Both the position numbers and the translations under genes were made by a program. The notes beneath the pieces are model-generated. The model saw nothing but the letters and a program-made list of their open reading frames with translations. It ran no database searches and was not told the origin of the DNA. 32,399 bases of DNA from a virus: the IMG/VR virus record IMGVR_UViG_3300027806_000109, positions 1-32,399 of that record. The stretch is one strand, 5' to 3'. Shown here piece by piece: positions 16,873 to 20,459 of the stretch (its first letter is position 1; every line of letters begins with the position of its first letter).

Positions 16873-16968
16873 ATGAATGAAGTTGTCTTTCCGCACATCT
16901 CAACAGCAGTCACCTGGCTATACCTCATTGCAATTGGCTATTGCCTATACAGATGGAGTACTAAATGA
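16873..16968 (+). CDS. 31-residue transmembrane microprotein
   Basis: The SD AAGGAGGAGAGT, one of the best in the window, directly precedes the ATG. The product has a hydrophobic segment VTWLYLIAIGYCLY and a positively charged end RWSTK, so it should be a single-pass membrane peptide. The stop and the ATG of the transglycosylase share ATGA, coupling the two. A 95-residue reading in another frame over the same bases was rejected because it lacks this SD position. A helper, anchor or holin-like partner for the wall enzyme is possible but unproven. Confidence 0.65.
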   Translation: MNEVVFPHISTAVTWLYLIAIGYCLYRWSTK

Positions 16969-17399
16969 AAACCAGATTAGCAGCGCTATTCAGTTGGGCA
17001 TTGACGCTATCCAGCACAGTCTTTCCCAGTCAGTCATACGCAATAGCAGTAGCCGACAGGCTGCAGCACAGGGACGAGAACAAGCCCTTAACAAAGAAGG
17101 AGATACGCTGGACGAAGTCCTTAAGCAAATCCTATGCGAAGGCTCTCATCTCAGCACAGTATGAGACGTGGGGTCATTCAGAATACAAAGCACTGCTCAA
17201 ACTTTGGGGTAAAGAATCTGCGTGGGACCACACTGCAGACAACCCTAAGTCAACAGCATATGGCATACCACAATTACTAAAGATGAAACCTAATACGCCT
17301 GCGCCCGAGCAGATTGCTCGTGGCTTGGCATACATTGAACATCGGTATGGCAAACCATCAGTTGCTTGGGCACACTGGCGCAAGCACGGTTGGTACTAA
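16965..17399 (+). CDS. Exported lytic transglycosylase
   Basis: This 144-residue protein begins with a signal peptide (about residues 1-26, MKTRLAALFSWALTL and a cut after SYA). The SLT-like domain shows GKESAWD with the catalytic Glu at about 84, then STAYGIPQL (96-104). The C-terminus (YIEHRYGKPSVAWAHWRKHGWY, shown here in two parts: YIEHRYGK and PSVAWAHWRKHGWY) is the signature of short actinobacterial transglycosylases. It would cleave glycan strands outside the membrane. Its place among early genes, far from the endolysin and holins, is odd. Roles in early wall remodelling, superinfection exclusion or auxiliary lysis are open. Confidence 0.85.
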   Translation: MKTRLAALFSWALTLSSTVFPSQSYAIAVADRLQHRDENKPLTKKEIRWTKSLSKSYAKALISAQYETWGHSEYKALLKLWGKESAWDHTADNPKSTAYGIPQLLKMKPNTPAPEQIARGLAYIEHRYGKPSVAWAHWRKHGWY

Positions 17400-17402
17400 G
17401 TT

Positions 17403-17519
17403 TCTACTCTGCGTTCACAGCATAATTTATTGTGCATAGTCCCCTGAGTAGATAGACGGAGAGATTGCAGGTCTAACCAGCGTAATCCGTCAGACCTGAG
17501 CAAGTCTTAAAACTGCTCA
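17403..17519 (+). promoter_or_regulatory. Structured leader with stem, pseudoknot and hairpin
   Basis: Four elements follow one another before the SD at about 17534. First, a stem TCTACTC (17403-17409) with GAGTAGA (17446-17452) encloses a small hairpin (17420-17435). Second and third, GACGGA (17455-17460) pairs with TCCGTC (17486-17491) while CAGGTCT (17468-17474) pairs with AGACCTG (17492-17498). The two 3' strands are contiguous, giving an H-type pseudoknot. Fourth, GAGC-A-AGT / ACT-GCTC (17498-17518) overlaps the last base or two of the pseudoknot, so the two may compete. The element has no U-run. It is a candidate cis-regulatory RNA, or the 3' portion of a small RNA, upstream of the DUF932 operon. 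Confidence 0.6.
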
Positions 17520-17544
17520 CAATAAACAAACAAAGGAGACAACA

Positions 17545-17970
17545 ATGGCAAGACAAGGTAAAGGAATAAAAGTAAATGTTCCTAGATTAAAAGTAATTGA
17601 GGCTCTTGAAAAGAGTCTTAATAAACTAGAAACAGATTATCAAATAGGAAAGAAACTAGATGCTGACTATGAAAAACAAAAGTCAGACTGGCATAAGAAA
17701 GTTCTTAAACTTACTTTGCCTCTAATTAATAAAGCAGAGTACTGCAATATAACTACTAGATACAATGGCACTATTAGCGTAGACTTTAATCTATCTGCTG
17801 GCAGCCTTACATTACCTGAAGAACCTAAGTTTGAGGGTAAAGAACAGATAGCAGAATGGCAGTATGAACAACAAAAAGAAGAAATGGAAAGCGCAATAAG
17901 ACTTCTTCGTATGTGCGAAGATGAAACTGTAAACACAGCGACTTATGCATCCATAAGTCAGTACCTATAA
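17545..17970 (+). CDS. Unknown 141-residue charged protein
   Basis: It begins with a clear SD (AAAGGAGACAACA then ATG). The first ~55 residues are helical and Lys/Glu/Asp-rich (probable coiled coil: VIEALEKSLNKLETDY). The middle is beta-like (ITTRYNGTISVDFNL). The rest is another acidic helix ending in SISQYL. No motif recognised. It is the first gene after the structured leader and is followed after ten bases by the DUF932 gene, with which it probably forms a transcription unit ending near 19650. Confidence 0.65.
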   Translation: MARQGKGIKVNVPRLKVIEALEKSLNKLETDYQIGKKLDADYEKQKSDWHKKVLKLTLPLINKAEYCNITTRYNGTISVDFNLSAGSLTLPEEPKFEGKEQIAEWQYEQQKEEMESAIRLLRMCEDETVNTATYASISQYL

Positions 17971-17980
17971 GGAGACAACA

Positions 17981-18985
17981 ATGACAACCACAGTTGTGGA
18001 TAGACCACAAGTTGCGCCGAAGAATATGTCGGCGTGGATTAAGTCAGGTGTTGCAGTAACAGCAACATCAGCCAGTGATGTATCCAGACAAGCAGGTCTT
18101 GACTGGACAGTATCACTACACGATGTGACTACTACCTACCAGATTCCTGGACAGGGACTACCAATTCACATCCCAGTTAAAAACAAACAAGCAGTTGTTA
18201 AGACAACACCAACGGGAGAAGTTATTCCTCTTGGTATTGTTGGCACTAAATACAAACCATTTCAAAACGCAGAAGTATTCTCCGTGCTAGATACCCTGAT
18301 TGATTCAGGCGATGCTCGCTATGCAGCAGCAGGTGAGTATGATGCAGGGGCAAAGGTATGGATGCTATTGCAACTACCCAATGAGATGGAAATTAAAGGC
18401 GACCCACACGCAGCATTCTTGCTAGCCAAAACTACACACGATGGTAGCGGTTCAGTTCTTATCCGCCCTATCATTGAGCGTCTATGGTGCAGCAATCAAA
18501 TTAACAAAATCTTCCGTGCTAGAGATAAGCAGCACACATATACACTACGACACACCTCTAATGCAAGACTAGATGTTAATGATGTTCGCAACATTCTTAA
18601 CATTACCTACTCCAGCATTGAGCAGTACAGCAACCTAGCAAATGTATTGCTAGAGCGTGAGGTTACTCGCAGTTATGCCGTTGATTACTTCAAGAAAGTC
18701 TTCCCATTACCCAGCAAAATAGAAGATACACCAGTACATCTACTATCACAGGGTGAGAAGAAGCAGCGCACCAACGCTAACTTTGCACGGCATACTGCAA
18801 TGAACATCTTTACCAGCAGCCCAACACAGGAGAATATCCGTGACACCCAGTTCGGATTGTGGCAAGCAGTTGTTGAGTATGCAGACCACGGTAAGCCGAA
18901 CAAGGCTAAATCGCTGGGCATCAGGACGATGTCTGGTGCCAGCGACAATATCAAGTTGCGTGCATTAGAACTACTAACAGTATAG
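17981..18985 (+). CDS. DUF932 family protein (phage/plasmid-like protein)
   Basis: This 334-residue protein matches the DUF932 pattern of phage and plasmid proteins. Segments include VGTKYKPFQNAEVFSVLD (about 87-104), AAAGEYDAGAKVWMLLQLP, FLLAKTTHDGSGSVLIRPIIERLWCSNQ (shown for orientation as AKTTHDGSGS and RLWCSNQ), and TLRHTSNARLD. The family is common in mobile elements. Its function is not firmly established; links to DNA repair/recombination have been suggested. SD TAAGGAGACAACA precedes the ATG. The neighbours on both sides are unknown proteins of the same operon. Confidence 0.85.
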   Translation: MTTTVVDRPQVAPKNMSAWIKSGVAVTATSASDVSRQAGLDWTVSLHDVTTTYQIPGQGLPIHIPVKNKQAVVKTTPTGEVIPLGIVGTKYKPFQNAEVFSVLDTLIDSGDARYAAAGEYDAGAKVWMLLQLPNEMEIKGDPHAAFLLAKTTHDGSGSVLIRPIIERLWCSNQINKIFRARDKQHTYTLRHTSNARLDVNDVRNILNITYSSIEQYSNLANVLLEREVTRSYAVDYFKKVFPLPSKIEDTPVHLLSQGEKKQRTNANFARHTAMNIFTSSPTQENIRDTQFGLWQAVVEYADHGKPNKAKSLGIRTMSGASDNIKLRALELLTV

Positions 18986-19411: not shown

Positions 19412-19563
19412 TGCCTAAGATAGCAGACCACACCTATAGTGAGGCACTGCGTACTGGCAAGTGTATGGTAGGCAAACACAGTGAATGCACAGGTACTGCG
19501 GTCATCAGTATCCACGCACTCAGGAGACCTTGTGATTGCCAATGCCACAGCAAATCAGAGTGA
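19411..19563 (+). CDS. 50-residue Cys/His-rich protein
   Basis: The product begins MPKIADHTYSEALRTGKC. It carries Cys at about positions 18 and 26, then CDCQC near 42-46 followed by His, so a zinc site is likely. It is coupled to the previous gene by TAATG. It is the last gene before the double hairpin and terminator. No family recognised. Confidence 0.6.
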   Translation: MPKIADHTYSEALRTGKCMVGKHSECTGTAVISIHALRRPCDCQCHSKSE

Positions 19564-19588
19564 GCAGATAACCGCCTTTCTATCTGCT
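19563..19588 (+). repeat. Short hairpin after the DUF932 operon
   Basis: AGCAGATA (19563-19570) pairs perfectly with TATCTGCT (19581-19588). It begins with the bases of the stop codon region of the previous gene and precedes the main terminator. It may protect the 3' end of the upstream transcript or help termination. Confidence 0.55.
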
Positions 19589-19602
19589 ACACTCTGCCTA
19601 CT

Positions 19603-19650
19603 GAAACAGGCTGGGTTTTGATTAGTCTCCTTTCTCAGCCTGTTTCTTTT
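19603..19650 (+). terminator. Terminator-like hairpin with anti-SD in its loop
   Basis: GAAACAGGCTG (19603-19613) pairs perfectly with CAGCCTGTTTC (19636-19646), followed by TTTT. The loop (22 nt) is long for a terminator and contains GTCTCCTT (19625-19632), a perfect complement of the SD AAGGAGAC (19654-19661) of the next gene. Forming both pairings creates a pseudoknot covering that SD. Both termination and translational control are possible. Confidence 0.7.
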
Positions 19651-19673
19651 AACAAGGAGACAAGGACAGACAA

Positions 19674-20459
19674 ATGCGAGTAGAAATAGAACGAGACCGA
19701 TACGGTCGTCCATTAGTTGTACCCAAAGCAGGTGGCAAACCAGTTGCTTATACACGGGCTACAACAATTGCCAATAGTCTTGATGACCCAGCAGCACTAA
19801 CTGCTTGGAAGATGCGAATGGCAGCAATAGGTTTAACAGTACGCAGCGACTTACTACTAGCCATCAGTGCTGCACAAGAAGATAAGATGGCTATTAATAG
19901 ATACATTGAAGATGCTATGGAAGTTGCAGGCGCTAGCCGTGCAGCAACTATCGGTACAGCACTGCATTCATTTGCAGAAAAAATAGATTTGGGACAGGAC
20001 TTCGGACCTATCCCAGATGAGTGGGCAGCAGACTTAGTTGCCTACCAGAAAGCAACAGAACAACTTAATAAAATCTTTATAGAACAATTCTGCGTGCTAG
20101 ATAAATTCAAAATTGCTGGCACACCAGACAGAGTTGTTGAGTATAAAGGTGAAAGATTCATTGCAGATATTAAGACTGGTCGCATTGACCATCCTAATAA
20201 CATTGCTATTCAGTTAGCGATATATGCTAACGGCTCCCCGTATGATATTGCTACGGGTCGCCGTGGTAGTTGGGGCGATGTCAACAAAAACAAAGCCATC
20301 ATCATTCATCTTCCAGCAGGAACAGGTCTATGCAAATTAGTTTGGATAGACATTGCAGAGGGTTGGAAAGGTGTACAATTTGCAATGAAGGTAAGACAGT
20401 GGCGAGACAAGAAAGGTCTTGCTACACCATTCCAGGAACAGGAGACAATCAGTGGCTAG
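19674..20459 (+). CDS. RecB/Cas4-type PD-(D/E)XK exonuclease
   Basis: This 261-residue protein carries the full motif set. It has GTALHSFAE with His at about 98, then GTPDRVVEYKG with Asp at about 152, and FIADIKTGR with Asp165 and Lys167 completing the metal-binding PD-(D/E)XK site. An N-terminal region precedes the nuclease core; no four-Cys iron-sulfur cluster of Cas4 type is seen. Phage enzymes of this group degrade DNA 5' to 3' for recombination, and they usually pair with an annealing or accessory protein. The next gene overlaps it by eight nucleotides and is the likely partner. The SD is unusually far from the ATG (12 nt) and may be sequestered by the upstream hairpin. Confidence 0.85.
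   Translation: MRVEIERDRYGRPLVVPKAGGKPVAYTRATTIANSLDDPAALTAWKMRMAAIGLTVRSDLLLAISAAQEDKMAINRYIEDAMEVAGASRAATIGTALHSFAEKIDLGQDFGPIPDEWAADLVAYQKATEQLNKIFIEQFCVLDKFKIAGTPDRVVEYKGERFIADIKTGRIDHPNNIAIQLAIYANGSPYDIATGRRGSWGDVNKNKAIIIHLPAGTGLCKLVWIDIAEGWKGVQFAMKVRQWRDKKGLATPFQEQETISG

Follow-up and report, generated by a model that had tools for sequence, protein, structure and literature searches.

Small H-type pseudoknots are an established kind of RNA structure, represented by the preQ1-I riboswitch and the type III toxin-antitoxin RNAs and, in phages, by the short pseudoknot in the gene 32 mRNA leader of T2 and T4, a single gene-specific autoregulatory site. Barriers at gene boundaries are familiar from chloroplasts, where intercistronic mRNA ends are capped by PPR proteins that bar both 5'->3' and 3'->5' exonucleases. 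Repeated elements have been described in the Cluster K mycobacteriophages, whose SAS/ESAS repeats lie ahead of a subset of genes, some with inverted repeats, the SAS itself being a 13-bp sequence, GGGATAGGAGCCC, that adjoins start codons in a single phage cluster (PMC3203893). In the xrRNAs of flaviviruses and plant RNA viruses, the apical loop of a hairpin pairs with a strand just downstream, and one viral xrRNA with a pseudoknot of this kind brings bacterial RNase J1 to a stop in vitro (PMC5760640).

The locus that we compare with these systems lies in a 32,399-nt stretch of viral DNA (the window; IMG/VR record IMGVR_UViG_3300027806_000109), in the spacer between a transglycosylase-like gene and a short gene followed by a DUF932 gene (Table 1). 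Comparison with relatives indicates that three small, structured, cis-acting RNA modules, D, A and E, stand in tandem in this spacer; a further module, B, is absent from the window and occupies E's place in relatives. E resembles the gene 32 leader pseudoknot in its loop lengths and in residing in a phage mRNA leader, but many phage groups carry it, in multiple copies and ahead of tRNAs as well as genes that have nothing in common. Unlike the preQ1-I and type III toxin-antitoxin RNAs, E is dispersed and has no Rfam match, and a tandem array of the type III toxin-antitoxin kind was not found, a single copy lying in the window and the others being scattered. With SAS/ESAS, E shares the character of a repeated, conserved element ahead of genes in a phage genome, whereas it differs in being a covarying pseudoknot that sits farther upstream and extends across host phyla; direct reading did not find the 13-bp SAS within positions 17400-17545. 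The PPR-capped chloroplast ends embody the same barrier that we propose below, with the difference that a bound protein provides it there and the RNA fold itself would provide it here. As to the viral xrRNAs, whose loop-to-downstream pairing E and B share, B may add a three-way junction, but the 28 nt of E leave no room for a closing helix or for a three-way junction ring around the 5' end; the likeness is one of topology, between RNAs without evident common sequence, E and B being intercistronic elements of DNA phages. We do not class E among the xrRNAs, whose defining property is to stop a 5'->3' exoribonuclease.

Table 1. Features of the spacer and its surroundings in the window.
Feature	Position	Strand	Description
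Upstream gene, transglycosylase-like	16965..17399	+	PHROG 12661 transglycosylase, E = 9.7e-18
Intergenic spacer	17400-17544		145 bases
Module D, hairpin TCTACTC/GAGTAGA	17403..17452	+	stem changes on both sides in relatives
D outer stem, TCTACTC/GAGTAGA	17403-17409/17446-17452		
D inner hairpin, GCATAAT/ATTGTGC	17420-17426/17429-17435		
Module A	17455..17491	+	stem GACGGA/TCCGTC, conserved internal loop GAGATT/GTAA
A outer stem, GACGGA/TCCGTC	17455-17460/17486-17491		
Module E, 28-nt H-type pseudoknot	17492..17519	+	covariation in both helices
E helix S1, AGAC/GTCT	17492-17495/17504-17507		
E helix S2, TGAGCA/TGCTCA	17497-17502/17514-17519		
E loops L1 (C), L2 (A), L3 (TAAAAC)	17496; 17503; 17508-17513		
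Rejected helix, CAGGTCT/AGACCTG	17468-17474/17492-17498		
Shine-Dalgarno sequence AAAGGAG of the 141-aa gene	17532..17538	+	read directly
Downstream gene, 141 aa	17545..17970	+	ATG at 17545; no Pfam or PHROG match
Next gene, DUF932	17981..18985	+	PF06067, E = 5.3e-36

Judged from the window sequence alone, the case for a structured RNA is weak, and it is comparison alone that settles it. The fold energy of the spacer gives z = -0.60, and a pseudoknot with both helices at least 6 bp long turns up in 251 of 1000 dinucleotide-shuffled spacers, while 6-mer helix seeds are numerous, their count being matched by 2/1000 shuffles. No Rfam 15 family reached its gathering threshold, whether in the window or in 12 loci that bear modules; at relaxed thresholds the spacer returned only a chance match to isrF (E = 4.1) and the E copies of four loci returned none, Rfam models leaving pseudoknots unscored and being such that very short families may escape. 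A DNA-level search of the phages collection with this region produced no match, and neither Pfam nor PHROG matched the downstream gene, which has relatives at 16 loci in IMG/VR.

A sequence-only reading had placed here a structured RNA with a pseudoknot, and all the strands that it named are found where it located them. It was right about the outer stem of D, about the stem GACGGA/TCCGTC, which covaries in relatives, about the 145-nt gap and about the distance of some 15 nt from the last hairpin to the Shine-Dalgarno sequence, whose GGAG lies 15 nt past the last helix of the spacer, that of E. The pseudoknot as drawn was mistaken: CAGGTCT/AGACCTG is intact in only one of 36 distinct relatives and is a coincidence, AGACCTG spanning the S1 strand and L1 of E together with the opening two letters of its S2, and CAGGTCT being part of A. 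The last hairpin, TGAGCA/TGCTCA, does exist and covaries, but rather than competing with a pseudoknot it constitutes one helix of the pseudoknot E, the partner helix of which, AGAC/GTCT, had been overlooked. The general claim of a structured RNA with a pseudoknot holds and is stronger than first made, and the view that chance is unlikely holds by covariation for A and E, but not for the pairing originally drawn, comparable ones occurring in 25% of shuffles.

The consensus of E, N4-C-UGAGYA-U-N4'-NNUAAAC-UGCUCA, describes an H-type RNA pseudoknot whose two interlocked helices are backed by covariation. Two-sided changes affect four of the five S1 pairs and five of the six S2 pairs, with a covariation score of 0.509 versus 0.217 (0/500 shuffles). 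The first alignment was chosen by a descriptor demanding pairing, and the test was rerun without any S2 condition; among 78 candidates outside the fetch pattern, 39 pair at 6/6 positions in S2 and 18 at 5/6, where about 0.3% would be expected at 6/6. Compensated S2 types comprise UGGACA/UGUCCA, UAAGCA/UGCUUA, UGGGUA/UGCCUA and UAGACA/UGUCUA. The E model R1 recovers a single copy in the window at 41.8 bits, the next best hit scoring 9.8. Within the same gene block, the gap at 19563-19674 carries an inverted repeat, AAACAGGCTG...CAGCCTGTTT, ahead of a Shine-Dalgarno sequence, which is not an E copy by this model.

E is one of a large and unrecorded family of elements that lie between phage genes. 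One strict pattern retrieves at least 120 IMG/VR contigs, and E occurs in phages of cyanobacteria, actinobacteria, Bacillota and alphaproteobacteria and in crAss-like phages, with up to 7-9 dispersed copies per record ahead of unrelated genes. Named carriers, confirmed by sequence reading or by model, include the cyanobacterial phages Synechococcus S-EIV1 (7 copies), S-SM2 and Nostoc NMeng1, Mycobacterium Labelle, Arthrobacter Molivia, Lactobacillus Lj771 and phig1e, the thermophilic phage D6E, Paracoccus ParMal1, Lentibacter ICBM2, Roseobacter SIO1 and the crAss-like cr7_1, with variants in Staphylococcus PMBT9 and StB12; further BLAST matches, placed but not base-checked, fall in Streptococcus Javan271, Microcystis, Moorella and Anoxybacillus. 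Among 84,980 species genomes the strict pattern occurs in 14, none titled a gammaproteobacterium, and one E query against 28 Gb of E. coli genomes found nothing. No description of E, A or B was found in the open PMC literature, and an earlier one in subscription papers or preprints is possible.

Module A combines a freely varying outer stem with the conserved letters GAGAU(U)GCAGGYCUARCCAGCGUAA, which include an inner stem GC-A-GGT/ACC-A-GC and a triloop CTA. In copies chosen by loop letters alone, the outer stem pairs at 6/6 positions in all 21 distinct copies, with two-sided changes in 6/6 pairs and a covariation score of 0.666 versus 0.151, reached in none of 500 shuffles. An exact-pattern scan found A in 37 contigs, and a scan for its strands in the opposite order returned 32 distinct stretches, nearly all of them circularly permuted A (about 30 copies) laid out as ACCAGCGUAA-hairpin-GAGAUGCAGGU within an outer stem such as GGCAUA/UAUGCC. 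Because the motif survives circular permutation, A very probably acts as a folded RNA. Many permuted copies have E directly 3', and in those of L085, L110, L158 and L225-L260 E or a B-like sequence usually follows within a few nt. As read by eye, A stands alone directly after promoter-like sequence in the L018 family, L029 and L047, and in L051 and L052 a further structured element, GTGCTGGGT...ACCCAGCAC, follows A at the usual position of E or B. Module A was not found in GTDB genomes. An apparent occurrence among the clustered tRNA genes of Streptomyces phage Targaryen was rejected, the 17-nt match being tRNA-like and devoid of GTAA and of the outer stem; its source is a possible unannotated tRNA-like sequence at about 1441-1550 of that locus (L194), between the annotated tRNA-Val and tRNA-Leu.

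Support for D is weaker than for A and E and consists of stem changes on both strands: relatives that keep TGC...CCT carry the stems TCTACCT/AGGTAGA, CTGCCT/AGGCAG, GTTCCT/AGGAAC and TTTCTC/GAGAAA, and the loop edges TGC...CCCCT recur. Five other loci (L075, L146, L163, L176, L187) hold several E copies per record, some at a gene 3' end without a nearby downstream start, and in some of these loci a D-like hairpin, CTGCG..TTCACGCTA..TAGCAAG..CCCCTG, adjoins E.

Among relatives of the downstream gene, the spacer behaves as a cassette site. Two carry the same spacer as the window (L002, L015), two have A followed by B (L001, L003), four have other hairpins followed by B (L004, L006, L011, L012), and six with the same gene pair (L005, L007-L010, L013) have no module at all, the Shine-Dalgarno sequence AAAGGAG being kept in every relative compared, modules present or absent. 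The modules of the window's spacer are thus dispensable, since close relatives of its phage do without them. B, which occurs also in L024, L060, L229 and others (22 contigs by exact-pattern scan), has the consensus RRRUGG-GUN-GUCCCG-CYAYCY-GCGAACA-CGGGAC; in copies chosen by conserved letters only, its variable positions are fully paired in 21 of 24 distinct cases, the rest missing one pair, and covariation reaches 0.494 versus 0.195 (0/500 shuffles). An upstream CGC and a hairpin precede 45/45 folded copies, 41 of them with z below -1. This CGC could pair with the loop GCG, both being invariant, so that the closing helix is a candidate and B a possible three-way junction formed by CGC/GCG, the hairpin and the pseudoknotted hairpin. 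E and B interchange in one spacer, and because they share topology and place but no sequence, the obstacle itself is probably what matters.

The fetched loci contain 187 distinct E copies versus 1.0 in shuffled loci, counts that are no census, many loci having been fetched by pattern match. Only seven of the 187 lie inside an ORF of at least 100 aa, versus 58% of random positions. The stop-to-E distance has its mode at 5-6 nt, and the E-to-start distance is mostly 19-28 nt, just beyond an initiating ribosome; gene calls came from a simple heuristic that misses starts, and distances in large gaps are unreliable. An anchoring of E to the stop codon in large gaps is accordingly weakened, many such gaps being missed starts of the gene caller. 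E lies on the strand of the upstream gene in 157 of 167 copies and on that of the downstream gene or tRNA in 154 of 167. In nine cases E is separated by 2-10 nt from a tRNA gene on its 3' side, and in one more by 32 nt. Scaffold/capsid genes follow E in D6E, Lj771, StB12 and Javan271, whereas in PMBT9 and phig1e the gene that follows belongs to the capsid operon.

The reading that we favour, with a probability of about 0.42, is that E may act between genes as a mechanical obstacle to exoribonucleases, fixing stable mRNA ends. How the modules would act in RNA decay or processing, and which nucleases they would stop, we infer from the pairings, distribution and placement observed. An endonuclease or RNase P would cut near E, which would then keep RNase J, moving 5'->3', out of the downstream mRNA and keep PNPase and RNase R, which move 3'->5', out of the upstream mRNA, such that segments of one phage transcript would acquire different half-lives without separate promoters. 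Next to a tRNA, the RNase P cut would leave E as the 3' end of the upstream mRNA; ahead of a coding gene, E would be the 5' end left where RNase J stops. The wider proposal, that E and B are protein-free, phage-encoded barriers that stop host RNase J and 3' exonucleases and set mRNA stability within operons, as a tool common to phages of cyanobacteria, actinobacteria, Bacillota and alphaproteobacteria, is more tentative still.

Several observations favour the barrier. The tRNA-adjacent copies suit it because there is no downstream start to translate, yet RNase P cleavage is expected, and the replacement of E by B in the same spacer is as expected if the obstacle itself matters. It is further favoured by the presence of RNase J (TIGR00649) in each of the ten E carriers whose bacterial lineage is identified, and by the empty search of E. 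coli genomes with one E query, E. coli being a species not known to have RNase J. The covariation of both helices, the intergenic placement of E and the precedent of an xrRNA that stops RNase J1 (PMC5760640) speak for it as well. Against it, topology is no proof of exonuclease resistance, close relatives do without the modules, and four further carriers of E, all unplaced or archaeal MAGs, encode RNase J in part or not at all, E possibly deriving there from stray phage contigs. Nor is the host contrast absolute, since a Vibrio phage group (L219) has a fair E match, and Vibrio hosts are not known to have RNase J. The roles of A and D would go beyond the barrier model alone. A processed small RNA, as suggested in the sequence-only reading, or an mRNA-processing boundary is a possibility that comes close to this favoured reading.

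Rather less probable is that E, and likewise A and B, are recognised by an RNA-binding protein of the host or the phage, such as an antitermination factor or a global mRNA regulator, for which the conserved loop and S2 letters would be recognition letters. The C of L1, the UAAAC of L3 and most S2 letters are indeed conserved far beyond structural need, and the rigid conserved internal loop of A outlasts circular permutation. However, compensated changes do occur in the S2 letters, B fills the same role with other letters, and the protein would need to be very conserved to serve hosts in several phyla; an antiterminator at the start of an operon is, moreover, ill-suited by up to 7-9 dispersed E copies per record.

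Unlikely, in our judgement, is translational control, whereby the pseudoknot, lying between two genes, would tune the loading of ribosomes or their termination and reinitiation. The distances to many starts and from stops would accommodate it, as would the 15 nt between E and the GGAG in the window, but no E-SD pairing was seen and the spacing from the stop does not keep frame (39, 34 and 27 in the three frames), all of them being occupied, on which ground readthrough of the stop codon was likewise rejected. The position of nine copies 2-10 nt ahead of tRNA genes, together with the many unrelated genes downstream, argues against a gene-specific translational switch and equally against a metabolite riboswitch. 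The translational switch put forward in the sequence-only reading would need two conserved, mutually exclusive folds at the Shine-Dalgarno sequence, and its alternative helix CAGGTCT/AGACCTG survives in 1/36 relatives; six relatives with the same gene pair carry no spacer module.

More doubtful is that E acts as a substrate, at which polycistronic RNA would be cut by a processing endonuclease or by self-cleavage. Phage mRNAs are frequently processed between genes, and the intercistronic and tRNA-adjacent position fits such a role, but RNase III requires longer helices than the 4-6 bp present in E, Rfam ribozymes give no match, and known self-cleaving ribozymes are larger than 28 nt. A small ligand-sensing riboswitch is very improbable: E has the H-type topology, the A-rich L3 and the size of preQ1-I, but Rfam, preQ1 families included, offers no match, and several copies per genome stand ahead of unrelated genes and tRNAs. 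Chance complementarity without function, which does account for the CAGGTCT/AGACCTG pairing, is negligible for E and A given their covariation, distribution and placement.

E, being so widespread in phages, covariant in both helices and absent from Rfam, would constitute a new viral family of cis-acting RNA. How genes within one phage operon, for instance scaffold and capsid, come to be unequally expressed without extra promoters is a standing question, part of which a portable RNA barrier would answer, and such a barrier would provide a bacterial-virus parallel to the eukaryotic viral xrRNAs.

As regards transcription signals, E shows no association with intrinsic terminators (1/167 copies versus 1.1% in controls), and a role in blocking Rho was set aside, cyanobacteria not being known to have Rho. 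A TATAAT lies within 110 nt upstream of 17 of 191 copies, the corresponding figures being 4.3% for random windows and 1.6% for the reverse strand, a promoter proximity that is modest overall and derives mostly from one phage group. In seven loci (L078, L098, L125, L130, L157, L179, L184) the stop codon of a gene is directly followed by TATAAT and, between this and E, by a small hairpin or two, an arrangement that puts a likely promoter upstream of a short leader containing E.
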